Under the pieces are notes generated by a model. It had not been told where the DNA came from. It saw only the letters and a program-made list of their open reading frames with translations, and searched no databases. Below are positions 17,301-41,201 of a stretch of 64,000 bases of DNA, piece after piece. Position 1 is the stretch's first letter, and every line of letters begins with the position of its first letter. Position numbers and translations under genes: made by a program. Source of the stretch: a virus. The DNA is taken from positions 1 through 64,000 of the IMG/VR virus record IMGVR_UViG_3300021093_000064; one strand, written 5' to 3'.

Positions 17301-17307
17301 TATTTAT
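17301..17307 (-). promoter_or_regulatory. late-promoter-like ATAAATA
   Basis: ATAAATACCTAAAAA on the minus strand, 12 nt upstream of the ATG at 17288. It matches the T4 late consensus TATAAATA at seven of eight positions. Confidence 0.6.
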
Positions 17308-17334
17308 GTTTTTTAATGAAATATATAATATTTT

Positions 17335-18312
17335 TTAAGAACCAATAAGAACAAATAGTCCCGAAGTACCGGGATTTCCAGAAGTTCCTCTGTATGGCGA
17401 TGTAGGATTTCCTGCAGTTGTTCCGGTTCCACCAGTTGTCGAGCCTCCAGTAACACTTGGATGAATATATCCAGAACCTCCACCGCCGGCACGTCCAGAT
17501 TGACCTGCAGTACCATTTCCCCCCTTGTTGCCGCCGCCACCACCATTAAATCCTCCTCCTCCGCCGCCTCCAGAACCTTGATTAATACCTCTAGTTACAC
17601 CAGTTCCTCCGGTAAACGAACCTGGTATTGATTGTCCACCCCCACCACCACCACTTCCAGGCGCAGATTGTCCCGAAGTTCCTCCTCCAGCACCGCCGAT
17701 ATGTGTTGGTGGTTGGTTACCGGCATCAGTTCCGTTTCCACCCCCACCACCACCTGCCATTATTCTTGCATTTGGTTGTGAAATTGAAGATACAAATAAT
17801 CCCGTATATCCACCACCAGCACCACCAAAGGCATCTGGACCTCCACCGGGACCACCAGAACCAAATGGTGATGCAAATTGAGTTTGTGCAGCACTTCCTC
17901 CAACAACAAATACATAATTTGTTCCTGGAGATAAAGTTAAAGTTCCTGAAGATGATCCTCCAGCTCCACCACCACCAGACACATTATCATTACCTCTAGA
18001 TCCACCAGCTCCCCACATAATAAATGGGGCACTAAATGGAGCATTAACTGTCATAACGTATTGCCCAGCAGTGCTGACACTAAATCCACTAGATTTAGGT
18101 ACAGTAGTTACATTTCCTTGGTTTGCTGTTGGATAGTACGATATTTGTACAGCACTCTTACCTCTCAAGTTATCCATTGAGATAGTACCACTAGGAACAC
18201 CCGCCAGTGCTCTTACGTTTGCTTGATTAAGCGAGATAGTAGTTGCTGATGGACTGATGCCAAGTTCTGTATTGACTTGGCTCATTGAAATAGTACCTGT
18301 TGGAAGTACCAT
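17335..18312 (-). CDS. glycine-rich adhesin-like protein, 325 aa
   Basis: MVLPTGTISMSQVNTELGIS... carries the same N-terminal attachment domain as 15933-16946, with two ISM..(V)N and RGKS blocks. A beta region (to about residue 95) leads into FIMWGAGGSRGNDNVSG and about 200 residues dominated by glycine with spaced aromatics and hydrophobics (GGYTGLFV, ARIMAGGGGGGNG). The end is TSGLFVLIGS. GAGGAATAATAG precedes the ATG. It is presumed to be a receptor-contacting tip. Confidence 0.75.
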   Translation of the reverse strand: MVLPTGTISMSQVNTELGISPSATTISLNQANVRALAGVPSGTISMDNLRGKSAVQISYYPTANQGNVTTVPKSSGFSVSTAGQYVMTVNAPFSAPFIMWGAGGSRGNDNVSGGGGAGGSSSGTLTLSPGTNYVFVVGGSAAQTQFASPFGSGGPGGGPDAFGGAGGGYTGLFVSSISQPNARIMAGGGGGGNGTDAGNQPPTHIGGAGGGTSGQSAPGSGGGGGGQSIPGSFTGGTGVTRGINQGSGGGGGGGFNGGGGGNKGGNGTAGQSGRAGGGGSGYIHPSVTGGSTTGGTGTTAGNPTSPYRGTSGNPGTSGLFVLIGS

Positions 18313-18315
18313 CTA

Positions 18316-18654
18316 TTATTCCTCCACTACATTCCAAGGAAACTCGCCATCATTTATTTGAATCCAATTAGACTTTGCTTTCTCTATTTCTGCTTCAATA
18401 CCTTGATTTACTGAATCTTCATTAATAAAATCTTTCACCCAATTAATCAGAATTTCTTCCGTTAATTGCTCATAAGGTACAAAAGAGCTCTCATCAATAT
18501 CTTCGATATTAAAGTTTGCTGCTGCCTTTACGGAACCAGTATAACCATCCTCATCAATACCAAATTTTTCCCATACAACCGTGAATACTACACTATCAAT
18601 AGTATTTATAGTTCTCTTTGTAAGCGAATGTATTTTCCAAGTATAGTTTATCAT
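18316..18654 (-). CDS. small protein after S74 fibre, 112 aa (copy 2)
   Basis: MINYTWKIHSLTKRTINTID... is the paralogue of 16950-17288. Its start overlaps the stop of the 1185-residue S74 fibre by ATGA, so it is translationally coupled to that fibre. Acidic C-terminal half, ending GEFPWNVVEE. The coupling supports a role in folding or assembly of the adjacent fibre; no direct evidence. Confidence 0.65.
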   Translation of the reverse strand: MINYTWKIHSLTKRTINTIDSVVFTVVWEKFGIDEDGYTGSVKAAANFNIEDIDESSFVPYEQLTEEILINWVKDFINEDSVNQGIEAEIEKAKSNWIQINDGEFPWNVVEE

Positions 18655-21600
18655 TTTTTCAAGTTATTAATTTCTTCTTTAAGTGTATTTATTTGCTCTT
18701 GCTGCTCTTTGATTGCTTCAACAAGAAGTGGAACTAATCTTTCATATTGAATGGTTAAATAATTTTCTCCTGATTTTGATGTTTTCTTTTCATCTGTAAA
18801 ATCAATATCAAATGGTGCTGGTGCAACTGCTTGAGGAAGAACTTCTTGAACTTCTTGTGCAATCAAACCAATGTCATTTGTTTCGTGTTTTGGAGTGAAT
18901 CCTAGTTCTTTTGATTTCTCATTCCAATCAAAAGTATATCCATTCAGTTTCTGTATTTTATCTAATGGAGTTTCAATATGTTTGAAGTTTTCTTTTAATC
19001 TACGGTCTGATGAATATGCAGTGATGTTTGATGTTGCTGTAATTGCACCAGTAACATTAGTATCAATTTGTGGATTAAAAGATGCTCCAGAAGGAGAATA
19101 ATACCAAACACCTCTCCCATTGGTGCCATCATACATACCTTGATTTCCGCCAGCAGCAACTGTTTGTCCATAAAAATAGACATTAGTTGTTCCATTATTA
19201 AAAATTATAACTCTTTCTGCTGCTGTTGTGTTGAATGATAAATTTGCAGTAAAAGTTTGAGCAGCACTCCAAGTATTAGAACCATTCATAAGAGGAATAG
19301 TTGCGCCTGATGTTCCCACATTATACCCATCAAGCAAGTCAGCATTTAAGTTGCTTACTACAGTCGTTGAAGAAACTGTAAGTGGTGCAGTTCCTGTTGC
19401 TACTGTAGAAATTAATTGTGATGATGCTCTTATGGAACCTGATACATCTAGTTTTTGTCCTGGATTTGTTAATCCAACTCCAAGATTACCAGAAACATAA
19501 GCACCACCAGTTACTTGAAGTGGTTGTGATGCTGTTCCTGTAGCACTTGTAGAACCGACTAAGAGATTGCCACCAGTAACTTGAACACCAGAACGAGCTG
19601 TTACAATACCAATAGAATCAACATTGGTTACGTCTTCATAAGTTAAGGTTCCTGCAATAGAAACATTTCCAGTAAATGTTGCTGCAGTACCAGTAATATT
19701 TCCATTAAATGTTGTTGCAGATATAACACCAGTAGAAGGATTGAACGATAACTTAGTAGTCGAAACTTTCGATGCTGTAATTGTTCCTGAAGTTTGTGCA
19801 GTTAATACTGGATACAAAGTTTGATTAGTGCTTGTGTCATCAACAACTGTAGAACCTGCTCCAGTTAATCCAGAGCCATCACCAACAAAACTTGTTGCAG
19901 TGATAACACCAGTTGCAACAATACCATTAGTTATGGTAAGTCCAGTGCCAACATTAATTTTATTGTTGATACCATCAATCGTAACTGATGAAGAACCAAC
20001 AGTTAGAATACCAGTAACTCTTGCGTCACCATTAACAATAAGAGCAGTAGAGCCAACTCCAACCTGAACATAATTCCCAAGAGTGGTAATACCAGTGACT
20101 TTTAGATTTCCATTAATTACCAAGTCATCTGTAGATAGACTAACAGCCTTATATCCAACAACTTCTACAACATCTCCATTTTGTGCAGCACTTGTAAGAC
20201 CAACTGTTGTACCGTTAGTTGCAGTATAGTCATCACCAGAAACTAGACGAGCACCATTTAAATAAACATCAACATATCCAATTGTATATCCATTGGTTAA
20301 TGTAAAGTTTGTTTGAACTCCAGTGACATTATAAGATTGTGCATTTCTCGATAGTGGAGCAGTATTCAGTGCTGTAATGAAGTAATCAGTTTCAGTATTT
20401 GGAGCACTTGCAAATCTAATCGTTGAAGAACTAACTGTATATGCAGTTGTGGGTTCTTGAATAACACCACCAAGAGAAACTAAAAGTTGTTGTTCATTCA
20501 GTGGGAAGTAATTATTACCATTGTACTGCATCGTAAATGCAGTTGTAATTCCATTAAATGATGGAGTCAGAGTAATAATATAATTATCCGCTGATGTTAG
20601 AGCAGAAACTCCAGCACCTGCACCACCCGTTGATATAATTGTTACATTACCTGTGGATTGGTCAATTGAAATACCAGAACCAGCAGTAATGGAAGTAACA
20701 ATACCTGTCAGATTAGTCCCAGAACCAGAGAATGAGGTTGCCGTGACAATACCAGAAACTTTTACGTTACCAGTAACATCTAGTTTTGATGTTGGATTTG
20801 TAGTTCCAATGCCAACATTAGAGAGTGTATGAATACCAGCAGAATTTTGTACAAAAAATCCTTCACCACTTCCACCACCACCAGTTGCAGTGATGGTTAC
20901 ATTACCTGTAGATTGGTTGATTGAAATACCAGTTCCGGCAGTTAATGAAGTTACAATGCCTGTTAATTGGGAACCAGATCCAGAGAATGAAGATGCTGTG
21001 ACGACACCAGAAACATTAGCACCAGATGAAGTGATAATGCCACTAAAATTACCTGATGTTGCAGTGAGCACACCAACAGAAATACCATTTGTGGTGCTAT
21101 TGCCTCTACCTGTTACTGAGTTTAAAGTATCAGTTTCTGAATATGATGTTAAATATGTGCTTGTATCAACTGAACCATCAGCCTTTAAAAACTGACTTGA
21201 AGTTCCACCAGATTTAACAAAAGAAGTAGCCGTGACAACACCAACAACTATATTAGGTGTTCCTGTTAATCCTTGTGCAACAGTTGCAATACCAGCAGTT
21301 GATGCAAAACTTACATTAATATCATAAGTTCCAGATAATCTTGCAGAATTAATGGTCCCTGTAGTGATATTTGCAGCATCTGCAAGATTAGTCGCAGTGG
21401 TTGCAGTTCCTGTAACGTTACCAGTGAGAGCACCAACAAATGTAGTTGCAGTAACAACACCTGTTGCATTAATTCCACTACGAGCAGTGATTTGGTAGGG
21501 AGTGTCAATAAAATTAGCAGCGTTGGATACTGCATTACCCATACCAGCATGATTAGAGCACTGATAATGTAGAACAATCGGTGTGGTATCTACAATAGTG

Positions 21601-22208
21601 ATTTCAGTATATGCACCAGCACTACCAGCAGTTCCGTTTGTTGTTACATTAGTAGTGTATTGAGTTGTTCTATTTGCTTCCAGGTAAAAACGAAGTGGAT
21701 GAGAACTATTACTACCGTCTGCTTGATCAAAGCGATAGGTTTTTCCTGGAAGTAATGTTATAAAGGGAGATTCTGCCCCGTCAATAAAGTATCCTTGAGA
21801 AGATCCAGATCCAAAGTAACGATGATTCGCTGTTTTATTTGCGACTGTGACCGTAAAAGTTTTTGTAGCAGAACTTGCCGTTCCTAAAAGTGTTTGATAT
21901 CCATTAAAACTAGATGCAGTTACAACTCCACTAAAATGTCCATCACCGACAACAGAAAGTTTTGATGTTGGAATTGTGGAACCAACACCTACATTTCCAG
22001 CAGTAAAGTTAATATCATAAGAATCCGTTCCCGTCCCTACGTTCCAAGGGTTAACGGTAAAAACTGTAGTTCCTATACCAACGTTTTTAGAGGCAAATAC
22101 CTTTCCGTCATATGTGTTTAAAGCTATTTCCCCAAGAGGAACTTGCGTCTCATTGGGAATTTTGCCAGGTACAGATGACCTTTTAAACCGTACTTTTGGA
22201 TCAGACAT
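18651..22208 (-). CDS. long tail fibre with C-terminal S74 chaperone domain, 1185 aa
   Basis: N-terminal 30 residues (VRFKRSSVPGKIPN, GEIALNTYDGKVF) form an attachment head seen in other phage fibres. Residues 111-228 are an inserted module with His170, Cys217, His220 and Met223 (YQCSNHAGMG), resembling a cupredoxin copper site. The shaft is made of repeats such as VGIGTTNPTSKLDV and ATSFSG. The last 120 residues are an S74 intramolecular chaperone (SDRRLKEN, GLIAQEVQEVLP), with the Ser and Lys that drive self-cleavage in endosialidases, ending in a coiled coil. GATGAGG precedes the ATG. Confidence 0.85.
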   Translation of the reverse strand: MSDPKVRFKRSSVPGKIPNETQVPLGEIALNTYDGKVFASKNVGIGTTVFTVNPWNVGTGTDSYDINFTAGNVGVGSTIPTSKLSVVGDGHFSGVVTASSFNGYQTLLGTASSATKTFTVTVANKTANHRYFGSGSSQGYFIDGAESPFITLLPGKTYRFDQADGSNSSHPLRFYLEANRTTQYTTNVTTNGTAGSAGAYTEITIVDTTPIVLHYQCSNHAGMGNAVSNAANFIDTPYQITARSGINATGVVTATTFVGALTGNVTGTATTATNLADAANITTGTINSARLSGTYDINVSFASTAGIATVAQGLTGTPNIVVGVVTATSFVKSGGTSSQFLKADGSVDTSTYLTSYSETDTLNSVTGRGNSTTNGISVGVLTATSGNFSGIITSSGANVSGVVTASSFSGSGSQLTGIVTSLTAGTGISINQSTGNVTITATGGGGSGEGFFVQNSAGIHTLSNVGIGTTNPTSKLDVTGNVKVSGIVTATSFSGSGTNLTGIVTSITAGSGISIDQSTGNVTIISTGGAGAGVSALTSADNYIITLTPSFNGITTAFTMQYNGNNYFPLNEQQLLVSLGGVIQEPTTAYTVSSSTIRFASAPNTETDYFITALNTAPLSRNAQSYNVTGVQTNFTLTNGYTIGYVDVYLNGARLVSGDDYTATNGTTVGLTSAAQNGDVVEVVGYKAVSLSTDDLVINGNLKVTGITTLGNYVQVGVGSTALIVNGDARVTGILTVGSSSVTIDGINNKINVGTGLTITNGIVATGVITATSFVGDGSGLTGAGSTVVDDTSTNQTLYPVLTAQTSGTITASKVSTTKLSFNPSTGVISATTFNGNITGTAATFTGNVSIAGTLTYEDVTNVDSIGIVTARSGVQVTGGNLLVGSTSATGTASQPLQVTGGAYVSGNLGVGLTNPGQKLDVSGSIRASSQLISTVATGTAPLTVSSTTVVSNLNADLLDGYNVGTSGATIPLMNGSNTWSAAQTFTANLSFNTTAAERVIIFNNGTTNVYFYGQTVAAGGNQGMYDGTNGRGVWYYSPSGASFNPQIDTNVTGAITATSNITAYSSDRRLKENFKHIETPLDKIQKLNGYTFDWNEKSKELGFTPKHETNDIGLIAQEVQEVLPQAVAPAPFDIDFTDEKKTSKSGENYLTIQYERLVPLLVEAIKEQQEQINTLKEEINNLKK

Positions 22209-22259
22209 TCAACCTCATCTTTGGTATATACCGTAGAACTCTTATATAAGAGTTTTTAT

Positions 22260-22266
22260 TATTTAT
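22260..22266 (-). promoter_or_regulatory. late-promoter-like ATAAATA
   Basis: ATAAATA lies about 50 nt upstream of the S74 fibre ATG and includes the TAA of the coiled-coil gene. The fibre also has a Shine-Dalgarno (GAGG). Confidence 0.5.
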
Positions 22267-22454: not shown

Positions 22455-22480
22455 AAAAAAAGGAGGAGATAACTCCTCCT
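22455..22480 (-). terminator. intrinsic terminator abutting a start codon
   Basis: Perfect 8-bp stem AGGAGGAG/CTCCTCCT (22480-22461) with loop TTAT, followed by TTTTTTT and then directly ATG. It terminates the 778-residue fibre gene. A TAAATA at 22485-22480 on the upstream side could start late transcripts within the stem. Confidence 0.8.
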
Positions 22481-22501
22481 ATTTAGAAATTAATACGAAA
22501 C

Positions 22502-24838: not shown

Positions 24839-24869
24839 TCCCTTTCTCCACTAGTTTTTCCCTTAGTAT

Positions 24870-24875
24870 TATTTA
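24870..24875 (-). promoter_or_regulatory. late-promoter-like TAAATA
   Basis: CTAAATAATAC about 32 nt upstream of the ATG at 24838. Weaker match to TATAAATA; a good Shine-Dalgarno is also present. Confidence 0.4.
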
Positions 24876-24881
24876 GAAAAC

Positions 24882-25552: not shown

Positions 25553-25572
25553 TTTACTTCTGGTGTTTTAAG

Positions 25573-25579
25573 TATTTAT
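25573..25579 (-). promoter_or_regulatory. late-promoter-like ATAAATA
   Basis: AATAAATACTTAAAA, 20 nt upstream of the ATG at 25552; no Shine-Dalgarno between. Confidence 0.6.
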
Positions 25580-25584
25580 TAATT

Positions 25585-26031: not shown

Positions 26032-26045
26032 TATGGTTTTTTAGG

Positions 26046-26052
26046 TATTTAT
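26046..26052 (-). promoter_or_regulatory. late-promoter-like ATAAATA
   Basis: CATAAATACCTAAAAA, 14 nt upstream of the ATG at 26031. A second copy at 26099-26105 overlaps the stop region of the upstream fibre; the 47 nt between may hold a gene remnant. Confidence 0.6.
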
Positions 26053-26104
26053 GAGTTAATTCTAGTTTGGATACCACCTTCATTATAATCTTTTTGAGTA
26101 TTTA

Positions 26105-27727
26105 TTATAGAGAATATGCTTTTACAAGAACATAAAGCCACCCATTACTCCCAGAGTTTCCAAAGTTATTAAAATAAATTGTCCTTCCACTGGTTGGTAT
26201 GTGTTGACTGGAATACCATACACCAAAGAATGGGCTGTATCCATCTGTTTCACCATTATAAGTAAGAGTAATTGCCTGACGAGTTAGTGTTCCAAATTGT
26301 CCTGATGGTTGCTGTCCCCTTGATCCAACCCAGTTTGTTTGATTTGTTAAAACGTTTCTACCCAAAACAAAATTCTGGTGATCGCTGGAATTAGCAGTTG
26401 CAAAAACATCAGCAAGAACATAACGAGCAGTTGAGGGTATGGTGGATGGATTTAGTGTAATTGCTTGTGAAGTTACACCACCAGTAAAAGACCATTCTGT
26501 TACTCCTGGTGTTACTTCCACCCATTGAATAATATTATCATTTCCTATTTTAATATTTCTCTTAACTTGTAAATCTCCATATGCAAGATCAATTGTCACA
26601 CCTGGACTATTAGTTCCACCACCAACAAAAGAAATACTGTTTGCTGGAACAGTATATTCACCAGACTCTGATAAAGATGAGTCAATATTTCTATGATATA
26701 TTCCCCAGTTCGAATTAGAGTCTGCTGGATCTCTGAATATCCAAAAATCTCTATCATTGGGTGATCCTTCAATTGCAACATTGGTAGAAGGATTATTAGT
26801 TTTATATGTTGTTAAAACTGTTCCATAAGGAACTGTAAATCTATTTGCTCTAGCAGTTCCATTCACATCAAGTTTTGCTTGTGGATTTGTGGTTCCTATG
26901 CCGATATTACCAGTTAACCTGTAGATATCATTACCAGTTCCTGCAGTCCATCTAGATGCAACAAAAGGACTTCCGTTTTGATTTAAAGTTCCCGTGAAGT
27001 TAATATCATTAAAAGTACCAATACCAGAAGAATTTAAATTGACAATACTTAATCCAGTTGAGTGTAAATCAGAACTTCCGATTCTAAATCCACTAGTATG
27101 AATGGTTGTAGCAGAACCTACATTAACCTGATCAGTTGTTCCATTAAGAGTAACTGAACTTGTTCCAATTGTAAGAATACCAGTAACTCTTGTGTTTCCT
27201 TCTACAATTAACGTTGTGTTTCCAGTTCCAATCTTGACAGTACCAAGAGCATTGGTAACTGTTGAAATTCCGGAAACATATAAATCTCCAGAGGTATTCC
27301 AAGAAGGCCCTCCAGTCGATAACTTAATTGGTGTTATAGAACCATCAGCAACAATTGCAGTTCCAATCGGTACAGCAGGGCCTAGTGAAACTCCGGAGAA
27401 TGTTAATCCAGAACTTGGTGCGGTTGTGAAAGTAATATTTGATGATGAAATTGTATAATCAGTAATTGGCGCTTGAACTACACCACCAAGAACAATTCTA
27501 AGTTGTTGTGCATTCGCAGGATAGAATGGTATTCCGGATTCTGTAAGTGCGAATGTTACAGTTGAATCATTAAAAGAACCAGAAATATCATCAAGAATTA
27601 CAATTTCTTTTGTTGATTGTGGAGTAAAACTTTGCCAGACATATCCATCCCACTTGAAAGAAAACCCAGAAGTGTTATCTGTATAAACTTCATTTACAGT
27701 AGGTGCGTCTGGAAAGTTAAGTGCCAT
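26105..27727 (-). CDS. tail fibre, 540 aa
   Basis: Attachment-type N-terminus (MALNFPDAPTVNEVYTDNTS, FKWDGYVWQSF). Then a module LRIVLGGVVQAPITDYTIS related to the VYLNGVRL modules of other fibres here, a shaft of repeats (ILTIGTSSVTLNG, IGIGTTNPQAKLDV), and a distinctive C-terminal domain from about residue 390 (IIQWVEVTPGVTEWSFTG, WVGSRGQQPSGQ, YSPFFGVWYSSQHI, WLYVLVKAYSL) that is probably the receptor-binding or trimerising head. Followed by a 148-residue fibre-repeat gene. Confidence 0.75.
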   Translation of the reverse strand: MALNFPDAPTVNEVYTDNTSGFSFKWDGYVWQSFTPQSTKEIVILDDISGSFNDSTVTFALTESGIPFYPANAQQLRIVLGGVVQAPITDYTISSSNITFTTAPSSGLTFSGVSLGPAVPIGTAIVADGSITPIKLSTGGPSWNTSGDLYVSGISTVTNALGTVKIGTGNTTLIVEGNTRVTGILTIGTSSVTLNGTTDQVNVGSATTIHTSGFRIGSSDLHSTGLSIVNLNSSGIGTFNDINFTGTLNQNGSPFVASRWTAGTGNDIYRLTGNIGIGTTNPQAKLDVNGTARANRFTVPYGTVLTTYKTNNPSTNVAIEGSPNDRDFWIFRDPADSNSNWGIYHRNIDSSLSESGEYTVPANSISFVGGGTNSPGVTIDLAYGDLQVKRNIKIGNDNIIQWVEVTPGVTEWSFTGGVTSQAITLNPSTIPSTARYVLADVFATANSSDHQNFVLGRNVLTNQTNWVGSRGQQPSGQFGTLTRQAITLTYNGETDGYSPFFGVWYSSQHIPTSGRTIYFNNFGNSGSNGWLYVLVKAYSL

Positions 27728-27741
27728 TATAGTTTTTTAGG

Positions 27742-27748
27742 TATTTAT
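27742..27748 (-). promoter_or_regulatory. late-promoter-like ATAAATA fused to a stop codon
   Basis: TCATAAATACCTAAAAA, 14 nt before the ATG at 27727. The TAA is the stop of the preceding 90-residue gene. The surrounding 55 bp are identical to those at 29426-29480. Confidence 0.65.
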
Positions 27749-28017
27749 GAAACAGTATTAGATGCTGCTTCTTGATTTTTTTCTTCTACTGTTTTCACTA
27801 GACCCTCTTCATATGCAGCTAAAACCATATCTGGTTTGTTGGTTGCCGTGATGGGTTGATTATTATCTAACTTATGCTTTACATATAAGTCACAAATCTC
27901 ATCAATTGCAATACGAGCACGGTTGTGTGCTGCGTTATCAATCCAATCTTGTGGATCAGCAGCGACATATTCCATTGCTTTGGTTTCTGCTTCAGTTAGA
28001 GTAACGGTGTAATCCAT
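27745..28017 (-). CDS. 90-aa fibre-associated protein (copy 1)
   Basis: MDYTVTLTEAETKAMEYVAA... is about 80 percent similar to the 90-residue protein at 29448-29720 (same length, same NQEAASNTVS end). It is helical, with conserved QEWIDNAA-type, RARIAIDEICD and KPDMVLAA segments. Each copy follows a fibre gene with a C1q-like head, so I infer a fibre-specific chaperone or cap. This family is familiar to me from cyanophage genomes, where its function is not known. Confidence 0.7.
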   Translation of the reverse strand: MDYTVTLTEAETKAMEYVAADPQDWIDNAAHNRARIAIDEICDLYVKHKLDNNQPITATNKPDMVLAAYEEGLVKTVEEKNQEAASNTVS

Positions 28018-28035
28018 ATTAAGTTCTTTTTTGAG

Positions 28036-28042
28036 TATTTAT
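28036..28042 (-). promoter_or_regulatory. late-promoter-like ATAAATA
   Basis: TAATAAATACTCAAAAA, 18 nt upstream of the ATG at 28017 and touching the stop of the upstream fibre. Confidence 0.6.
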
Positions 28043-29430
28043 TATCCTAATAACCAAGCGCCCCAAGATGATTCACGCCAATATCCAACTGCGGTTCCAT
28101 TATGCAGACCACCCTTTGGTCTTAATGTATCACCAGCAGCAAGGTCCATAACACCAGAACAAGACATCGCCATATAATTACTCCAAGCTTCATTAGTACC
28201 ATTAATTTGGTGAATAAACACTGTATTAGTATCATTTTTTGATATAAAAATTCTAATGTAACTATTTTGAACAAAGTTTGCAGTTTCCCATCTCATATTA
28301 AAAAATGTATAGTATTTTCCAGCAACTGGTGCTGTGAAGATGCCTGTTCCAGTGTTGTAATGATTTCCTGTGTTAAATCCACCTGTTTGAGAAGTTATAT
28401 TGAATAAAGTTCCAAGCATAGCAGTATCACCAGTTGCTGGTTGGTTAGCAGCACCAGCATTATCACTAGAAGCGAAAAAACCAGGTTGATAAGGCATCGT
28501 CACCCTACCAGAACTATCAATGATTATTCTATTATCACCATTATTATATAAAGTCATTGGAGTTGCTTCTGTATTTTGAATAGAGAAAACACCTCCCATA
28601 GTTTTTATAACACGACCTTTATAGTCTTGACCTGGATGAGTAAAGTCGATGTATGAACTGGCACTACTGTTGCGACAGCAAATGTCTAAAGCAAAATCAT
28701 TTGTCCCACCTTCACCAATATGAACTCCTGGTTGCGTTGGATAATTGTTTCTTGAACCTGCAACGTGGAGAGAAGAACTTGGATTTGTGGTTCCTATGCC
28801 CAGATTACCATCGGCAGTCAAACTCATTCTTAAATGAGCACTGCTAAGATTAGAAGTATTAGAACCACTATCACCAGCATAAAAATCTAATCTTTGTCCA
28901 ACACCAAATATATTAGCATTTCCAAATCCAACAGAATATCTTGGATTTGTTGCATCTGGAAAAACTAAACACGGAGTTGTATAGGATGTAGTACGGATGT
29001 GAAGTTTTGCCAGTGGATTATCGGTGCCTATGCCGACATTACCACTTGAATCTATACGGGCTCTTTCATTACCTGCTGCCCTAAAAGCAATAAAACCAGA
29101 AGCATTAGAACCATTTAATGTAAGTCCTGATGATGAAGTTTGTTCTACAGCAGTTGCACTTATTCTTAGTCCATCCGAACCATCTTGAATGTGTAATTTC
29201 TGTGCCGGTACTGTGGTTCCTATACCAATACTACCACTCACATAAGCACCACCAGTTACCTGTAATCTCTGACTTGCAGTACCTGTAGAAGTAGCAGAAC
29301 CAACGATTAAACTCGTGTCACCTAAACTTAAACTTGTGATGCCAGAAATAACCAGTCCTTCATCAGCAAAGGTGACTGTTCCGAGTCCACTTCTGTTCTT
29401 GATATTGTTTACTCTAAGTTCAGATGCCAT
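28042..29430 (-). CDS. tail fibre with C1q-like C-terminal domain, 462 aa
   Basis: Head MASELRVNNIKNRSGLGTVT; shaft repeats (LIVGSATSTGTASQRLQVTG, IGIGTTVPAQKL, VGIGTDNPLAKL). The C-terminal 140 residues read as a C1q/TNF-like jelly roll: an A-type start near FNTGNHYNTGTGIF, TAPVAGKYYTFFNMRWET, and SGVMDLAAGDTLR before the final strand (WGAWLLG). C1q-like domains form trimers, fitting a fibre tip that contacts the host surface. Followed by a 90-residue helper-type gene. Confidence 0.8.
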   Translation of the reverse strand: MASELRVNNIKNRSGLGTVTFADEGLVISGITSLSLGDTSLIVGSATSTGTASQRLQVTGGAYVSGSIGIGTTVPAQKLHIQDGSDGLRISATAVEQTSSSGLTLNGSNASGFIAFRAAGNERARIDSSGNVGIGTDNPLAKLHIRTTSYTTPCLVFPDATNPRYSVGFGNANIFGVGQRLDFYAGDSGSNTSNLSSAHLRMSLTADGNLGIGTTNPSSSLHVAGSRNNYPTQPGVHIGEGGTNDFALDICCRNSSASSYIDFTHPGQDYKGRVIKTMGGVFSIQNTEATPMTLYNNGDNRIIIDSSGRVTMPYQPGFFASSDNAGAANQPATGDTAMLGTLFNITSQTGGFNTGNHYNTGTGIFTAPVAGKYYTFFNMRWETANFVQNSYIRIFISKNDTNTVFIHQINGTNEAWSNYMAMSCSGVMDLAAGDTLRPKGGLHNGTAVGYWRESSWGAWLLG

Positions 29431-29444
29431 TATAGTTTTTTAGG

Positions 29445-29451
29445 TATTTAT
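29445..29451 (-). promoter_or_regulatory. late-promoter-like ATAAATA fused to a stop codon
   Basis: TCATAAATACCTAAAAA, 14 nt before the ATG at 29430, TAA shared with the upstream 90-residue gene. Same block as at 27742. Confidence 0.65.
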
Positions 29452-29720
29452 GAAACAGTATTAGATGCTGCTTCTTGATTTCTTTGTACTGCTGTAGTGA
29501 CTAATCCCTCTTCAAAAGCCGCTAGAACCATATCTGGTTTGTTTGTAACTGTGATAGGAAGATTGTTATCTAGTTTATGCTTAACATAGATATCACAGAT
29601 TTCATCGATAGCAATACGTGCTCTGTTGGTTGCTGCATTATCAATCCATTCTTGTGGAGATGCAGTAACATATTCTAATGCTTTATTTTCTGCTTCGGTT
29701 AAAGTAATAGTATAATCCAT
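29448..29720 (-). CDS. 90-aa fibre-associated protein (copy 2)
   Basis: MDYTITLTEAENKALEYVTA... paralogue of 27745-28017, differing mainly near residues 76-81 (TTAVQR against KTVEEK). It follows the C1q-like fibre at 29741-30985. The last 55 bp, including the stop and the promoter of the next gene, are identical in the two copies, pointing to recent duplication or gene conversion. Confidence 0.7.
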   Translation of the reverse strand: MDYTITLTEAENKALEYVTASPQEWIDNAATNRARIAIDEICDIYVKHKLDNNLPITVTNKPDMVLAAFEEGLVTTAVQRNQEAASNTVS

Positions 29721-29734
29721 AAGTCTTTTTTGAG

Positions 29735-29741
29735 TATTTAT
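29735..29741 (-). promoter_or_regulatory. late-promoter-like ATAAATA
   Basis: AATAAATACTCAAAAA, 14 nt upstream of the ATG at 29720, adjoining the stop of the upstream fibre. Confidence 0.6.
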
Positions 29742-30985: not shown

Positions 30986-30999
30986 TGTGGTTTTTTAGG

Positions 31000-31006
31000 T
31001 ATTTAT
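31000..31006 (-). promoter_or_regulatory. late-promoter-like ATAAATA fused to a stop codon
   Basis: TCATAAATACCTAAAAA, 14 nt before the ATG at 30985. The TAA belongs to the upstream 86-residue gene. Confidence 0.6.
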
Positions 31007-32939: not shown

Positions 32940-32958
32940 TGGATATTATAGTTTTAGG

Positions 32959-32964
32959 TATTTA
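32959..32964 (-). promoter_or_regulatory. late-promoter-like TAAATA
   Basis: CTAAATACCTAAAA, 19 nt before the ATG at 32939; the TAA is the stop of the upstream gene. Confidence 0.5.
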
Positions 32965-33405
32965 GGTTCCTACAGGTCTCTCAAATGGAGTTCCTTCCTG
33001 AACAATTCCATCACCATCACCATCTCGTGCATTTGGATTATAACCTTCTGGTAGCATCCAAGACGTGGTATCTTCATCCCAATAATAGTAATCACCTTCT
33101 GGTTTAGGAGTTGGTGCTTCCCATTGACCAGTAGTTTCATTCAAAATCCAAGAAGGATATGGACTAGGACCTATAAACATATCAAGGTCTTCGTTGTAAG
33201 TATCACCTTGTCCAGCATACTTACCCCTAAAGTTTCCGCGATATGAGGTTCTTACCCATCTACGGTCTGCACCGTGGTGAGTATGAAGATGGTTTACACC
33301 AAGTTCTTCTACTTCATTACCATTCTCATCGGTGATAATCTCATTGTCCATATAGACAACATAGATTACCTCATTATTTTCATTAAGTTCTGCGTAGTGT
33401 GCCAT
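32962..33405 (-). CDS. WEPP-family protein with calcium-loop-like tail, 147 aa
   Basis: MAHYAELNENNEVIYVVYMD... shares with its paralogues the DENGNE, WVRTSYRGNFR, GDTYNED and WILNETTGQWEAP blocks. Its unique C-terminus, NARDGDGDGIVQEGTPFERP (residues 125-144), contains a DxDxDG loop like those that bind calcium in dockerins and EF-hands. It follows a glycine-rich adhesin gene, as do its paralogues. Inferred role: adhesin folding, attachment or capping. Confidence 0.7.
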   Translation of the reverse strand: MAHYAELNENNEVIYVVYMDNEIITDENGNEVEELGVNHLHTHHGADRRWVRTSYRGNFRGKYAGQGDTYNEDLDMFIGPSPYPSWILNETTGQWEAPTPKPEGDYYYWDEDTTSWMLPEGYNPNARDGDGDGIVQEGTPFERPVGT

Positions 33406-33420: not shown

Positions 33421-33427
33421 TATTTAT
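33421..33427 (-). promoter_or_regulatory. late-promoter-like ATAAATA
   Basis: TTAATAAATAATCATAAAAA, 15 nt before the ATG at 33405, directly behind the stop of the 28-codon gene. Confidence 0.5.
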
Positions 33428-33513: not shown

Positions 33514-33517
33514 TTTT

Positions 33518-34819: not shown

Positions 34820-34831
34820 TGTTTTTCAACC

Positions 34832-35239: not shown

Positions 35240-35256
35240 CTTATTGCTTTTTAAGT

Positions 35257-35262
35257 TATTTA
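35257..35262 (-). promoter_or_regulatory. late-promoter-like TAAATA
   Basis: CTAAATAACTTAAAAA, 17 nt upstream of the ATG at 35239; no Shine-Dalgarno. Confidence 0.45.
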
Positions 35263-36123
35263 GGAAAATAATGCAGCATCGAGTTCATTAAACCCCGTAG
35301 GTATATTTAGATTCGTTAGATTTGCTCCAGAACCACTGAAAGAACTTGCAGTGACTATTCCAGTTACTTTTACATCTCCAGTAACTGTAAGTTTTGATGT
35401 TGGATTTGTGGTTCCAATACCAACATTAGAAAGTGTATGAATACCTACAATAGTATAACTCCATCTATCATCACCAGCAACACCTCTACCCATCGTGTAT
35501 TCAACAATATCAATGATGTCTCCTAGTGATGCTGCTTCAGTTAATACAACGGAAGTTCCACTAGTAGCTGTAAATTCCGTTGGACTTAATCTGACACCAT
35601 TAAGATATACATCGATAAATCCAACAGTATAAGGAGTGGTAAATGTTGTCTGTCCTGCAGTTGCTGTAAATGCTGTTTCATTCTTAGCAGCAACTAATCC
35701 ACCACCTTCATTAAATGGTGCAGAGTCAACCCATACTGCAGTTGAACCAATACCTAAAGTAACCTCATTATAGTAAACAAAGGTTCTTGCATAATCAATA
35801 TGATAGAACAAATCACCATTTGATGGAGATGCAGGAAACTGTGTTCCAATTCCAATTGCACCAGAACTTCCTCCGCCTCCTTCAAAGAAGATGGTTACGA
35901 TACCAACATTAGAATCATAAAAAGTTGTAGAAACCCCAGCACCTTTTAGGTCAATAAAAGTAACACCATAACCAACAACACCACCAGTGGTTCCAATACC
36001 AATACCAGATTGTGGTAATCCTGTTAGGTTACTTCCGTCTCCATAAAAGGCAGTAGCAGTTACAACACCAGCAACTGTGATATTAGTATCAACTGATTGT
36101 GATTGTAACTTTGTAAGTGACAT
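35260..36123 (-). CDS. tail fibre protein, 287 aa
   Basis: MSLTKLQSQSVDTNITVAGV... GYGVTFIDLKGAGVSTTFYD recurs in other fibres here. Next FPASPSNGDLFYHIDYARTF, a module VGFIDVYLNGVRLSPTEFTA with DIIDIVEYTMGRG, shared with the 1185- and 688-residue fibres, and a final repeat SNVGIGTTNPTSKLTVTG. No distinctive head follows, so it may be a shaft or connector component. Confidence 0.7.
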   Translation of the reverse strand: MSLTKLQSQSVDTNITVAGVVTATAFYGDGSNLTGLPQSGIGIGTTGGVVGYGVTFIDLKGAGVSTTFYDSNVGIVTIFFEGGGGSSGAIGIGTQFPASPSNGDLFYHIDYARTFVYYNEVTLGIGSTAVWVDSAPFNEGGGLVAAKNETAFTATAGQTTFTTPYTVGFIDVYLNGVRLSPTEFTATSGTSVVLTEAASLGDIIDIVEYTMGRGVAGDDRWSYTIVGIHTLSNVGIGTTNPTSKLTVTGDVKVTGIVTASSFSGSGANLTNLNIPTGFNELDAALFS

Positions 36124-36141
36124 TATATCTTACTTTTTAGG

Positions 36142-36148
36142 TATTTAT
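36142..36148 (-). promoter_or_regulatory. late-promoter-like ATAAATA
   Basis: AGATAAATACCTAAAAAG, 18 nt before the ATG at 36123; the TAA is the stop of the upstream fibre. Confidence 0.6.
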
Positions 36149-37932
36149 CTGACTAACCACTCCTCTACATTTTCATCAATGTCTTGCATCTTAATCCAAC
36201 GATTTCCGATGACTTGACCTTTACGAACTCTAAGTTTTCCAACAAGACCTACAGCATCCCATTCTTGCCTATCTTCTCTTGAAACATATTCTTGGTCCGG
36301 ATCGTATTCTGGATTTAACTTACGATGAGTGAAACGATTACCTTTGTCATCGTGAGTTTTAATTGTTGTCTCAGTAGGAACTGTAATGTCTTCTGGTAAG
36401 TTCCAGTCCTCATAAGAATGCTCTTTACCATCTTCATCAGTCCACTCTACAACATTATGTTCTTCGAAGATATAACGATTGAATGAATCTTTTAAGTATT
36501 TCTCTGCCCACTTATTCCAAGAAGTATCACCAACGACTGATGGATTACCTGAGATTACTCCGATGATATCTTCACCTTCTTCAGCAATCTTAATCTTATT
36601 TCCAACTAAGGATACTGTATAACCTACACGGTCCTCATTGTTGGCGTTTCCATCTGCCCATTCGAACATTTCTGCATAGTCAGCGCCACCGCCGTTCCAA
36701 GAGCCGTCTGCATATGCTTGACCATCACCACGAAGGTTGAACTCCACGTCTCCAAGATTTCCCGACCAACCAACAAAAAACGAATATGCAATATTTGCAG
36801 CACGGTCTACATTTGCTGCTATAACTCTTGTGGCAAGACTTGCATTTGTAGACCTTAACCACATCGTGTTATCGTTTTGAGTTTGATAAAACTCATGAAA
36901 AGCACCTGCTGTATCTTGATAACCTCCAATATTTGATGCTTTGAAATATCCACCATATGTAATTCTTGCTTTCTCTGTTGGCAAGGAGTTTTCATTTGAA
37001 TTAAAAGTGGCACCAAAAATTATATTTGCCCCACTACTAAGATTGTTAATCTCAGGAACTCTTTGGAACCAAATACCGGCAGCATAAGAAGGATTTGCAA
37101 CGTCTCTATAACAATCTGCAAATATTCCCGAATGTACAAAAATAGCATCTGTTTGATTTCTATTCGAAAAAACAATACTTGGTACTGCTGCGACTGTTCC
37201 TGCACTTGAAGATTTATCTAAATTTAGACCTCCCTTTATATTTACGGATGAAATTGAACCAATACCAATATTACCTGAAGAATTAAGAACCATCCTGAAA
37301 TAATTCGTTCCATTATCAAAAAGATAAAAACTATTAGGTGAAATAGTTTCTGCCGAACCTCTTGCACCAACTTCCCAATCACTTCCATTTGTTAGGAATT
37401 TTAAAGTTGTTCGGTCAGTATTTGTAGTAGATTCAAGGGCAAGAATATCTCCAGAACTAACAATATGAGTTTTATATGAAGGATTAGTAACTCCAACACC
37501 CAAACTACCACTCACATAAGCACCACCACCTACTTGAAGTTTTTGATTGGAAGTTCCTGTTGCTGCTGATGTACCTACAAGAGTATTACCACCATAAGCA
37601 TTTAATGTTATATCTTTTTTAACAGTATTTGCTTTATTTGCAGATTCAATTGAAAAAGTATTACCAGAATTGTCTGCATAAAGTGCAAGGTATGCATCTC
37701 CAGCAAGTCCTCCTGTACGAAAAACTCCAAATACATCAAGTGTATATGCTGGATTTGTGGTTCCTATACCAATACTACCACTCACATAAGCACCACCAGT
37801 CACTTGTAATGTCTGACTTGCGGTTCCTGTGGTTGATGCACTTCCAATCAGAACTTCTCCACCAGTTCCTAAATCAATGTTAGAACTTGTACCTGATGGA
37901 TTTTGAAGTTTAATTGTCTTTAAAGTACTCAC
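36145..37932 (-). CDS. tail fibre with C-terminal G2 autoproteolytic domain, 595 aa
   Basis: The start appears to be GTG at 37932 (MSTLKTIKLQNPSGTSSNID). Two near-copies of the block LQVGGGAYVSGSLGVGVTNP make the proximal shaft. The last 180 residues begin GADYAEMFEWADGNANNEDR and run through VGYTVSLVGNKIKIAEEGED to GKLRVRKGQVIGNRWIKMQD. This matches the Peptidase_G2 / IMC domain family that cleaves itself after helping fibres trimerise. The same domain ends the fibre at 37957-39297. Late element at 37954, no Shine-Dalgarno. Confidence 0.85.
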   Translation of the reverse strand: MSTLKTIKLQNPSGTSSNIDLGTGGEVLIGSASTTGTASQTLQVTGGAYVSGSIGIGTTNPAYTLDVFGVFRTGGLAGDAYLALYADNSGNTFSIESANKANTVKKDITLNAYGGNTLVGTSAATGTSNQKLQVGGGAYVSGSLGVGVTNPSYKTHIVSSGDILALESTTNTDRTTLKFLTNGSDWEVGARGSAETISPNSFYLFDNGTNYFRMVLNSSGNIGIGSISSVNIKGGLNLDKSSSAGTVAAVPSIVFSNRNQTDAIFVHSGIFADCYRDVANPSYAAGIWFQRVPEINNLSSGANIIFGATFNSNENSLPTEKARITYGGYFKASNIGGYQDTAGAFHEFYQTQNDNTMWLRSTNASLATRVIAANVDRAANIAYSFFVGWSGNLGDVEFNLRGDGQAYADGSWNGGGADYAEMFEWADGNANNEDRVGYTVSLVGNKIKIAEEGEDIIGVISGNPSVVGDTSWNKWAEKYLKDSFNRYIFEEHNVVEWTDEDGKEHSYEDWNLPEDITVPTETTIKTHDDKGNRFTHRKLNPEYDPDQEYVSREDRQEWDAVGLVGKLRVRKGQVIGNRWIKMQDIDENVEEWLVR

Positions 37933-37953
37933 GATTATCTCTTATTTTTTAGG

Positions 37954-37960
37954 TATTTAT
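37954..37960 (-). promoter_or_regulatory. late-promoter-like ATAAATA
   Basis: AGATAAATACCTAAAAAAT, 21 nt before the GTG at 37932; the TAA is the stop of the upstream fibre. Confidence 0.6.
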
Positions 37961-39297
37961 CTGACCAACCATTCTTCAACAGTTGCACTAATATCCTGCA
38001 TCTTAACCCAAGTTGACTTTATAAGTTGACCTTTACGAACTCTAAGTTTGCCCATCATACCAACAGCATCCCATTCAGGTCTTTGCTCTCTTGAAATATA
38101 TTCTTGGTCTGGATTGTATTCTGGATTTAACTTTCGATGAGTAAAACGAACACCATTATCATCGTGAGTCTTTATTAAAGCATTTTCTGGAACTACAATA
38201 TCATTAGGTAAGTTCCAGTCCTCATAAGAATGTTCTTTACCATCTTCATTAGTCCACTCTATGACATTATGTTCTTCGTAAATATACCGATTAAAATCAT
38301 CCCTTAGATACTTTTGTGACCATTTGTTCCAGGCAGTATCACCAAGAACAGAAGGATTGCCAGAAACTACACCAATAATATTTTCGCCTTCTTCAGCAAT
38401 CTTAATCTTATTTCCTACGAGAGATACAGTATAACCTACCCTATCTTCATTATTAGGGTTGCCATCTGCCCATTCGAACATTTCAGCATAGTCAGCACCA
38501 GTAACATAGTTGTTATCACCAAAGACAGTTCCAGCACCATCAACTCTAAATTCAGTATCTGCTGTACTTGCATTAAATGCGAAGAAATAATGGAAAGCAG
38601 TAGATGCACTTCTGTTTGCTTGTGAAAAAACAATTAGTTCTGGATAAGAGGCACTATCTGCGTGGAAAGCCGCCGTTCTAGAATTGCTTGTTTGATAGAC
38701 AAAAAACTTTTGCCCTGCTGATGCACCACCAATACCGAAGTTACCACTTACATCTATACGTGCTCTTTCAGAATTTGAAGTATAAAAAGTAATAGGTGCT
38801 GCTTCTGATGTAAGTAAACTAAGTTCCCCAGTTCCTCTATGTGCTAATCTAGATAATGCATTTGCCCCAGTGTTATCTCTAATAATTCTTAAACCATAAT
38901 CTGTATATGTAGTATCTCCTACAAAATCAATATATGCATATGCATTTGTTGTTTGACCTCTTCCAAGTTCAATAACACTATTACTTCCATAATCAGTAAA
39001 TCTTGCTTTTCCGGCAACATCTAATTTAAATTCGGAATCTGGATTTGTAAGACCTACACCAAGATTTCCACTAACATAAGCACCACCAGTCACCTGTAAT
39101 GTCTGATTTGCAGTACCAGTAGAAGTACCTGAACCAATCACTACAGGAGCATTTGCAAAACTTGTAATACCAGTAGTGCTCTGAACAATAATACTTCCAG
39201 TTGTTGATGGTAAAGTGATTGTATTATTTGCCGCCGTTGCCGCTGCTTGGATTTCTACATATCCACTTGAAGTACCGTTAAGACGTAATTTAGACAC
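37957..39297 (-). CDS. tail fibre with C-terminal G2 autoproteolytic domain, 446 aa
   Basis: GTG start at 39297 (MSKLRLNGTSSGYVEIQAAA), a head common in phage fibres. One copy of the TLQVTGGAYVSGNLGVGLTN block forms the shaft; the middle region (YIDFVGDTTYTDYGLRIIRD) differs from the 595-residue fibre. The C-terminal 180 residues (GADYAEMFEWADGNPNNEDR...) are roughly four fifths identical to that fibre's G2 domain by eye, so chaperone conserved, head variable. Confidence 0.85.
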   Translation of the reverse strand: MSKLRLNGTSSGYVEIQAAATAANNTITLPSTTGSIIVQSTTGITSFANAPVVIGSGTSTGTANQTLQVTGGAYVSGNLGVGLTNPDSEFKLDVAGKARFTDYGSNSVIELGRGQTTNAYAYIDFVGDTTYTDYGLRIIRDNTGANALSRLAHRGTGELSLLTSEAAPITFYTSNSERARIDVSGNFGIGGASAGQKFFVYQTSNSRTAAFHADSASYPELIVFSQANRSASTAFHYFFAFNASTADTEFRVDGAGTVFGDNNYVTGADYAEMFEWADGNPNNEDRVGYTVSLVGNKIKIAEEGENIIGVVSGNPSVLGDTAWNKWSQKYLRDDFNRYIYEEHNVIEWTNEDGKEHSYEDWNLPNDIVVPENALIKTHDDNGVRFTHRKLNPEYNPDQEYISREQRPEWDAVGMMGKLRVRKGQLIKSTWVKMQDISATVEEWLVR

Positions 39298-39319
39298 TTT
39301 ATTTCAGTTACTTTTTAGG

Positions 39320-39326
39320 TATTTAT
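39320..39326 (-). promoter_or_regulatory. late-promoter-like ATAAATA
   Basis: TCATAAATACCTAAAAAGT, 22 nt before the GTG at 39297. Confidence 0.6.
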
Positions 39327-39334
39327 GATAAGCA

Positions 39335-40528
39335 TTATAGTTCTGCAGAATAAGCAATTGCATCTGGCATTAGTTGTCCTGCAAGATTTGCCCCATAGTT
39401 ATTTGATATTGTAAGAGTCACATACGAATTAGAAACTACTTCAGTGATAGAAGTAATATTGTAAAAAGCAAGTGCTGGTCGGTGTATTTTTTGTGTTCCA
39501 TTTATTAAACTTACATTTGGAACAGTTCTCAATGGATGCCTAAATCCAACTGGTGCGACAAAGGCATTATTTAGTTCGTTCATTGCACCTTGAGAAGAAA
39601 AATTGGTTTGATAATACCTCTGACACAATCGCAACTCATCTCCAAAACTTCGTCTCTCAAACTCAGTCGCAGTAGGCCCAACCTCTAACTGAACACCAGT
39701 CAGGAAGAAGTTATTACCAGCAGTTGCTAAAAAGTTCACTTGCCCGACTGCTCTGTTTGCGGATGTAGTATGCCAGGTGGTGCCTAGTGTTCCTCCAGAA
39801 TAAGTAGAACCTGCTGCTAAAAACCAAGCAACATAAAGCGAAGCACCATTATCATTATCAAAAACACCAGTTGTATCAGCAGGATATGTTAATGTCTTCT
39901 TTTCCCAGGTGTTTGCGGTATCAATTGTATAAGATTTTGATACCTGACGATTATTATCATTATCATAAAGTTCAGCAATATAAGTTCCTGTTAGACTCGA
40001 ACGAACCCAGAAGGATAGTGTAAATTGTTGAGCATTTGCAGTTCCTTTTTTAAATCCCTGAACATTAAAACCTTCTATGAGTTGAGTTATGAGCGCATAT
40101 TGACCTGCTGCTAATGATGCATCTGCAGTGGTGACTCTGTAATGAAGAGCACTACTAAATCCATCGGCATAAGCATTACCACCGACAGTGGAGTTCATTG
40201 TGGTCTGACCTGCAGACACAGCACCATCCATACTGTGCCCTATTGCAAATCTATCAGTCGTATAAGCACCACTAGTTGTGGTTCCAGCAGTTCCAGTAAA
40301 TCCTCTCTGATTGACCACCATAGAACCGTTGATGATGACATTACGAGAACCACCTAATTGACCATCATTAATACTAGTTACATAAGCAGTCGTAACACCA
40401 ATAGTACTTACACCAACAATACTTGTAGTATCAATATCTACGTTATTACCTACCTTAATATCACTTGTACCAATAGTAACTGCTGTACCAACTGTAATAC
40501 CAGTAGAACCGTCTAATCTTATCGGCAT
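39335..40528 (-). CDS. tail fibre with carbohydrate-binding-like head, 397 aa
   Basis: Short stem MPIRLDGSTGITVGTAVTIG and SIVGVSTIGVTTAYVTSIND; the latter shares a 59-bp exact DNA match with the 410-residue fibre. The head begins NVIINGSMVVNQRGFTG, with TDRFAIGHSMDG, FTLSFWVRSSLTGTYIAELY and EVGPTATEFERRSFGDELR, the same jelly-roll layout as 31260-32492 but with an S-M in place of D-F in the first motif. Likely glycan-binding. Confidence 0.75.
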   Translation of the reverse strand: MPIRLDGSTGITVGTAVTIGTSDIKVGNNVDIDTTSIVGVSTIGVTTAYVTSINDGQLGGSRNVIINGSMVVNQRGFTGTAGTTTSGAYTTDRFAIGHSMDGAVSAGQTTMNSTVGGNAYADGFSSALHYRVTTADASLAAGQYALITQLIEGFNVQGFKKGTANAQQFTLSFWVRSSLTGTYIAELYDNDNNRQVSKSYTIDTANTWEKKTLTYPADTTGVFDNDNGASLYVAWFLAAGSTYSGGTLGTTWHTTSANRAVGQVNFLATAGNNFFLTGVQLEVGPTATEFERRSFGDELRLCQRYYQTNFSSQGAMNELNNAFVAPVGFRHPLRTVPNVSLINGTQKIHRPALAFYNITSITEVVSNSYVTLTISNNYGANLAGQLMPDAIAYSAEL

Positions 40529-40546
40529 TTCTTATTACTTTTTGAG

Positions 40547-40552
40547 TATTTA
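40547..40552 (-). promoter_or_regulatory. late-promoter-like TAAATA
   Basis: CTAAATACTCAAAAAGT, 18 nt before the ATG at 40528; the TAA is the stop of the upstream gene. Confidence 0.5.
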
Positions 40553-41179
40553 GACTACAACCAGTGTAGAACCACTTTGAACCGTTACTGTGTATCCAGT
40601 TCCAACAGTAATCGGTCCAATCATCAGTGCATTCTTTCCTGCAGGTACAGTAACGTTTGCATTAATATCTGCATCCATCATGTAAACACCATCACTGATT
40701 GAGATAGTTCCAACAACTTGAAGAGCCCCTTCAGATGATGCAGTACCAGTGACTGATGCTGTATTGATTCCTACAAGACCACTAAAAGTTGCAGCAGCAC
40801 CTACAACATTATTAACTTCAATGTCAGGAATACCAGTAAGTCCTTGTGCAAGAGTTGCAATACCAGCAGTAGAAGCATAAGATGCATCACCACCACCAGT
40901 AATACTAATATCAACTACATTACCATTAATAGCAAAAGTATTACCAAGTCCAATGAAGTTTAATGTGGTAATACCAGTTCCAATGACAGTTCCTGCTGAT
41001 TGGATACCAACACCACTCGAAAATGCAGAACCCCCTTGATATAAGGTTCCACTAAAACTTACATCCCCATTTACATCTAATGTATACTGAGGAATCGTAG
41101 AACCTATACCAACTTTATTGCCTGTTGCTGTGATGTAAGATATTCCACCAACATCGGACAGGTTTCTTGCTCTTGACAT
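40550..41179 (-). CDS. short tail fibre protein, 209 aa
   Basis: MSRARNLSDVGGISYITATG... a typical fibre N-terminus, VGIGSTIPQYTLDVNG repeats, then LNFIGLGNTFAINGNVVDIS. The C-terminus VYMMDADINANVTVPAGKNA with MIGPITVGTGYTVTVQSGST is a compact beta cap found at the ends of several phage fibres. Probably a complete short fibre. Confidence 0.7.
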   Translation of the reverse strand: MSRARNLSDVGGISYITATGNKVGIGSTIPQYTLDVNGDVSFSGTLYQGGSAFSSGVGIQSAGTVIGTGITTLNFIGLGNTFAINGNVVDISITGGGDASYASTAGIATLAQGLTGIPDIEVNNVVGAAATFSGLVGINTASVTGTASSEGALQVVGTISISDGVYMMDADINANVTVPAGKNALMIGPITVGTGYTVTVQSGSTLVVV

Positions 41180-41194
41180 TCTGATGTTTTTAGG

Positions 41195-41201
41195 TATTTA
41201 T
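41195..41201 (-). promoter_or_regulatory. late-promoter-like ATAAATA
   Basis: TCATAAATACCTAAAAAC, 15 nt before the ATG at 41179 and directly downstream of the terminator hairpin at 41203-41229. Confidence 0.65.

Follow-up and report, generated by a model that had tools for sequence, protein, structure and literature searches.

The late promoter of bacteriophage T4 occupies positions -13 to -6 (PMC1524935) and is located about one helical turn upstream of the transcription start (PMC2988020). For the cyanophages S-PM2 and Syn9 the late promoter NATAAATA has been described (PMC2984593). T4-like phages are also known to carry promoter-stem-loop cassettes, termed PeSL (PMC4503421). With regard to translation, phyla which are poor in Shine-Dalgarno (SD) sequences, among them the cyanobacteria, bear signals of leaderless or S1-type starts, which are reported especially for single and operon-proximal genes (PMC5397173). 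Because of these signals a cyanobacterial host background would permit a start without an SD. T4-like cyanophages are abundant, and the translation of late genes in SD-poor hosts is poorly described.

Here we analyze a block of tail-fibre genes of such a phage. The window, that is, the whole stretch of 64,000 nucleotides under study, originates from a 66-kb IMG/VR virus record, and the same region is found in opposite orientation within a parent contig of 137,575 bases. The fibre block is encoded on the minus strand by co-directional genes separated by short gaps. An earlier note on this DNA had proposed that many of these genes are preceded by a late promoter joined to a pyrimidine pair and an A-run, that they lack an SD, and that late translation therefore proceeds in two modes. 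We follow up these proposals in the window and in related phages.

Materials and methods

The comparison set comprised 80 related fibre loci and the genomes, complete or almost so, of Syn9, S-PM2, P-SSM2, S-SRM01, SynMITS9220M01 and T4; it also took in the parent contig and parts of one more genome. Open reading frames were called mechanically and near-duplicates were removed, which gave 2,080 gene starts. The mechanical starts agree with the deposited gene starts at all 11 sites that were checked against them.

Results

Many proteins encoded in the window match PHROG and Pfam families of tail fibres, fibre assembly, Peptidase_G2, S74 and baseplate proteins, and many block genes have tail-fibre, fibre-assembly or chaperone-domain matches, in keeping with late structural genes. 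Among annotated phages the closest are T4-like ones infecting Synechococcus and Prochlorococcus, and the host is therefore inferred to be a cyanobacterium. DNA relatives of the fibre block were not found in the phage collection, and a search for relatives with the fibre gene 26105-27727 returned the parent contig only. A tblastn search with T4 gp55 showed that the parent contig encodes a homologue of it (gene 124018-124515, 36% identity over 123 amino acids, E = 2e-17). A query with gp33 of S-SRM01 matched other cyanophages and had no match in the parent contig, which is incomplete. As further observations on the gene content, the adjoining fibre genes 36145-37932 and 37957-39297 (both minus strand and both with a GTG start) carry Peptidase_G2 autoproteolytic chaperone domains, their C-terminal parts being 63% identical, and the fibre protein 28042-29430 (minus) ends in a C1q-like domain (Pfam, E = 2e-6). 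A Mom-family protein (57524-58132, minus; Pfam, E = 1e-21) is encoded near genes for tRNA-Thr and tRNA-Leu and suggests that the DNA bases could be modified.

The motif described in the earlier note is indeed present. The window contains 12 exact copies of ATAAATACYYAAAAA and two more with one mismatch, all of them on the minus strand, and the reversed pattern used as control gave no hit. Of the shorter ATAAATA, the minus strand holds 25 copies and the plus strand a single one. Within the block (17000-49200) there are 21 copies on the minus strand and none on the opposite strand; shuffled sequences contain 5.8 on average and 13 at most. For the extended pattern HTAAATAnYYAAAA the numbers are 15 and none, with a mean of 0.06 and a maximum of one in shuffles. 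Chance and base composition are thus ruled out as the source of the motif by the shuffle counts. All sites share the core TATAAATA with a variable first base, that is HTAAATA, and in 18 block genes such a T4-type late promoter stands upstream of the start codon at a distance of 12-23 nt.

The most frequent version of the extended late promoter is ATAAATACCTAAAAA, and all sites described here are on the minus strand. It is found at 17293..17307, 12 nt before gene 17288-16950, which would leave a predicted leader of 7 nt, and at 26038..26052, 14 nt before gene 26031-25585. Further copies are fused to the stop codon of the preceding gene. Three of these stand 14 nt before the next gene: 27734..27748 (between genes 28017 and 27727-26105), 29437..29451 (between genes 29720 and 29430-28042) and 30992..31006 (between genes 31263 and 30985-29741). 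The other two are 36134..36148, joined to the stop of gene 37932 and 18 nt ahead of gene 36123-35260, and 37946..37960, joined to the stop of gene 39297 and 21 nt ahead of the GTG start of gene 37932-36145. The copies at 39312..39326 and 41187..41201 are 22 nt before the GTG start of gene 39297-37957 and 15 nt before gene 41179-40550, respectively. The variant ATAAATACTTAAAAC at 25565..25579 is 20 nt before gene 25552-25217, a member of the L-shaped tail-fibre assembly family, and is the best-conserved case. In the variant ATAAATACTCAAAAA the first A is common to the upstream stop codon. It is located at 28028..28042, where the stop belongs to gene 29430 and gene 28017-27745 follows after 18 nt, at 29727..29741, where the stop belongs to gene 30985 and gene 29720-29448 follows after 14 nt, and at 26091..26105 (stop of gene 27727).

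Several genes of the same class fall outside the strict pattern. CTAAATA is found at 40553, 35263, 32965 and 41464 and ATAAATA at 33427. Four of the respective sites are fused to an upstream stop codon: CTAAATACTCAAAAA (40539..40553) to that of gene 41179, at 18 nt from gene 40528-39335; CTAAATAACTTAAAAA (35248..35263) to that of gene 36123, at 17 nt from gene 35239-34832; CTAAATACCTAAAAC (32951..32965) to that of gene 33405, at 19 nt from gene 32939-32505; and a CTAAATA lacking the A-run (41458..41464) to that of gene 42222, at 23 nt from gene 41434-41234, which has no SD. The fifth site is ATAAATA followed by ATCATAAAAAA (33421..33427, 15 nt before gene 33405-32962).

The exact sites generally precede genes, as had been claimed, with the exception of the site at 26105, which is followed by a 19-codon reading frame and by no large gene. 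This short frame (26046-26105, minus) runs through the promoter at 26052 and over the start of gene 26031. Two other fibres have a gene for a 90-aa protein at the corresponding place (27745-28017 and 29448-29720, minus), each located between fibre genes and each with its own stop-fused promoter. The ATAAATACTCAAAAA site at 26105 may therefore be the remnant of a lost third copy. The protein 27745-28017 belongs to no PHROG family, and a homologue of the 90-aa pair adjoins fibres in S-SRM01. The pair 29720/28017 is 82% identical and, like neighbouring fibres, arose by duplication; not all promoter copies are therefore independent.

It had further been proposed that in many cases the upstream TAA is part of the promoter, and this holds: the motif contains the upstream stop in 12 of the 18 promoter-close block genes, nine times as the TAA of HTAAATA and three times by sharing the first A. 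In the wider comparison this fusion is not clearly specific to the SD-less class (54/171 close promoters lacking an SD, 8/34 close promoters with an SD, 25/139 far promoters).

With class limits (9-24 nt, SD words) that were set after inspecting the window, and with mechanically called starts, an SD is missing in 17 of the 18 promoter-close block genes versus 3 of the 16 other block genes (Fisher P = 1e-5); 13 of the latter carry one. The absence of the SD was thus correctly noticed, and the split is real. It is, however, not arbitrary, as it follows the gene's own close promoter: block genes with such a promoter lack the SD, and genes having no promoter, or one about 30 nt or more away, mostly possess it. 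Two cases with a longer leader and an SD are gene 24838-22502, 31 nt downstream of CTAAATA (24870..24876), and gene 49116-47050, 30 nt downstream of ATAAATA (49147..49153). The examples that had been given for genes keeping a strong SD fare differently. Gene 43955 (43572..43955) has an SD and no late promoter, but gene 47024-45450 also has a late promoter 19 nt upstream, and gene 31263 has only a weak and distant GGAG. Gene 47024 is the exception among the 18: its ATAAATA (47044..47050, the A being common to the stop of gene 49116) is combined with an SD, and both promoter and SD are conserved in three relatives. The predicted structure at the start codon is weaker in the promoter-close window genes than in the others (-2.2 vs -4.3 kcal/mol, P = 0.10), a difference which is suggestive only.

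The gap before the 1185-aa fibre gene deserves a separate description. Here, a CTAAATA is directly followed by a strong terminator-like hairpin (22461-22486, minus). The leader of this gene contains a conserved and partly palindromic ACGGTATATACCA-like element before GATGAGGTTGA (22209-22240, minus), which is also present at the loci L038, L039, L043, L049, L050 and L054 and may be a control site.

In the cyanophages of the comparison set 171 of 205 promoter-close genes have no SD. Their SD rate of 17% lies near the 12% of a control window, and at the shortest spacings it is 8%. Many promoter-free cyanophage genes are also devoid of an SD, so SD absence alone is not special to the promoter-close class. 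In T4 the trend is reversed, as 11 of 14 promoter-close genes have an SD. We therefore reject the idea that a short leader forces the loss of the SD, although the predicted start would cut off part of the SD in the T4 cases of shortest spacing. Duplex energies with the anti-SD give the same picture: -0.56 kcal/mol for the A-tract class, with 1% at -6 or below, versus -6.6 kcal/mol for the close late promoters of T4, with 64% at -6 or below. A-tract promoters and SD sequences are mutually exclusive.

The extended element stands directly before an open reading frame in 2 of 2 cases in Syn9, 3 of 3 in SynMITS9220M01, 7 of 8 in P-SSM2, 11 of 12 in S-SRM01 and 16 of 17 in the parent contig. In Syn9 these are a fibre gene and a gp10-like gene, and in P-SSM2 a tail-fibre-like gene, the proximal tail fibre and gp3 are among the genes directly preceded, so that gp10-like and gp3 genes count among the promoter-bearing late genes of the relatives. 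SynMITS9220M01 has the element directly before a baseplate wedge gene. S-PM2 has a single extended site, which is accompanied by an SD, and the extended form is therefore not equally used by all members. The arrangement is present across the Kyanoviridae, mostly at tail and baseplate genes, and is limited neither to fibres nor to this phage.

Within gene families the arrangement can be followed over considerable distances. Orthologues of gene 25552 combine a close promoter with a missing SD in 38 of 39 thinned cases with divergent upstream regions, even where the proteins are only about 33% identical. Among them, 19 orthologues have a 20-nt spacing, and in these the core, the TT and the AAAA are nearly invariant, and the region from -45 to -28 is mostly unconserved. 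A second conserved element, AAGANAA, directly precedes the ATG in orthologues with this spacing (L016, L029, L048, L051 and others). The family of gene 33405 behaves differently: of its 24 members, 4 have a close promoter and no SD, 11 an SD and no close promoter, 9 neither and none both. The window itself carries both kinds as paralogues of 44% identity, namely the promoter-bearing gene 33405-32962, which has no SD, and gene 43955, which has an SD and no promoter.

As the T4 promoter occupies -13 to -6, the transcription start would be the sixth nucleotide after HTAAATA and therefore inside the A-run. With this assumed T4-type start site the predicted leaders are 7-18 nt long in the window and 4-19 nt in the relatives. 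In the deduplicated promoter classes, long-leader classes among them, the sixth nucleotide is an A in 58-74% of the promoters (78-94% in the first, redundant set), which is consistent with transcription starting 6 nt past the core. The alignment of start-codon upstream regions that the earlier note had called for, performed with the 2,080 gene starts, brought out an SD-less close class in which A is enriched at nucleotides 4-8 after the core, irrespective of the distance to the start codon. An A-rich leader had been claimed. The A-run is indeed there, but it is anchored to the promoter and not to the start codon: the information per column is 0.14-0.36 bits when aligned on the start codon versus 0.5-0.7 bits when aligned on the promoter. 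As main reading we therefore reject a ribosome-binding element tied to the start codon, since the signal vanishes in the start-codon alignment. Because of the anchoring, the A-run looks like a part of the promoter or of the start site. Runs of at least four A begin at nucleotide 4 in 65 of 100 cases, and 4-7 A extend across the assumed start. AAAAA is observed in 30% where 11% are expected from independent positions, and AAAA is found in 45% of the close SD-less, 24% of the close SD-bearing and 7-8% of the far promoters.

Discussion

We suggest that gp55-type late promoters located between the genes give rise to separate mRNAs with ultrashort, A-rich and SD-less leaders, from which translation would start independently of an SD, and we assign to this reading a probability of roughly 0.7. 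In this mechanism the T4-family promoter HTAAATA is extended by N-Y-Y and an A-run that spans the predicted transcription start. The element would be placed in a short intergenic gap and often be built from the upstream stop codon. The downstream gene would thus obtain its own mRNA with a leader of 7-18 nt, and as its cistron is promoter-proximal, the ribosome could begin at the 5'-proximal AUG or GUG. Block genes having no close promoter, or having a longer leader (24838, 49116), mostly possess an SD. The element, its position, enrichment and conservation, the promoter anchoring, the SD exclusion and the gp55 gene of the parent contig are direct observations. Short leaders follow if gp55-type initiation works as in T4.

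Two late translation modes had been postulated. The sequences support this distinction, as both classes exist, can be separated statistically and are conserved; the mode of translation itself, and likewise the transcript start at the A-run and the short mRNAs as main templates, we infer. Read-through is likely to produce polycistronic mRNAs across the block as well, because only one strong intergenic stem-loop is present (22461-22480) and none is found in the promoter spacers. These mRNAs could also feed the same starts. Taken further, long polycistronic late mRNAs might be the actual templates, with ribosomes restarting at the next start codon 17-37 nt further on, for which an SD would be dispensable, and the local promoters being weak or only topping up the supply. 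The co-directional genes, their short gaps and the single strong terminator are in line with such re-initiation. Yet among genes with a gap of at most 25 nt to the upstream gene an SD is found in 14/95 promoter-close (15%) versus 297/825 promoter-free cases (36%, P = 2e-5). In addition, the promoter is kept at a fixed spacing while the sequence upstream of it is randomised, and one element of SynMITS9220M01 starts on the last base of a tRNA-Ala gene. No upstream translation is therefore needed at that site and re-initiation after an upstream protein gene is impossible there. We consider re-initiation as the general explanation unlikely.

It is conceivable, though on the doubtful side, that the gp55-RNA polymerase stutters on the A-run at the start and so adds variable untemplated 5' poly(A) heads which load the ribosome in the absence of an SD. 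This would be an extension of our preferred reading and not its opposite. The promoter anchoring and the excess of AAAAA fit to it, and the 4-7 A across the predicted start reach back to nucleotides 4-5, which are untranscribed if transcription begins at +1; this is what slippage would need. Vaccinia virus has slippery initiator A-runs that lead to 5' poly(A) leaders, and reiterative initiation is established for bacterial RNA polymerases (PMC12722222). However, a start at nucleotide 4, easier melting of the DNA or a plain A-rich initiator would look identical. Finally, the repeats might merely have hitch-hiked with recent duplications of fibre genes, with leader and SD being unselected. Several block genes are indeed paralogous, and 29430 and 27727 have almost the same upstream sequence. 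But the element is also found in front of genes for unrelated proteins and in phages that are distant, and orthologues keep it despite diverged flanks, which already contradicts a duplication artefact and leaves it highly improbable.

The proposed separate mRNAs with short leaders make predictions for culturable phages, as the split predicts 5' ends and ribosome loading in Syn9, P-SSM2 and S-SRM01. The extended element further allows a more specific search for the late promoters and the start codons of cyanophages. If slippage were true, late tail-gene mRNAs of a bacteriophage would carry 5' poly(A) leaders, convergent with the late mRNAs of poxviruses.

The late-promoter core and the SD-poor translation of cyanobacteria are already known. 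In the literature examined we met no account of the extended A-run promoter, of how it is coupled to leaders that are ultrashort and lack an SD, or of the swap between promoter and SD inside one gene family. Among the known systems the T4-family late promoter with gp55, gp33 and gp45 is closest: the octamer core has a free first base, it precedes late structural genes, a gp55 homologue is present in the parent contig, and an A is found at the expected start. Unlike in T4, the close class has NYY and an A-run across the predicted start and is often fused to a stop codon, and the SD that follows most close T4 promoters is absent. The promoter NATAAATA has the same core and comes from the same phage family, and Syn9 and P-SSM2 carry the extended form; the A-run, the short SD-less leader and the SD exclusion are absent from the descriptions examined. 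The elements resemble the PeSL cassettes (PMC4503421) in that they are small, carry a promoter between genes and occur where genes are shuffled; here, however, the promoter spacers contain no stem-loop and the promoter is late and not early. The leaderless and SD-independent starts (PMC5397173) resemble our case in the start codon near the predicted 5' end and in the missing SD, whereas leaders of 7-18 nt would not be strictly leaderless. Poxvirus late promoters (PMC12722222) similarly have an A-run at the late-gene initiator near the start codon, but polymerase and promoter are unrelated, and the 5' poly(A) leader is theirs, while the A-run described here is known from the DNA.
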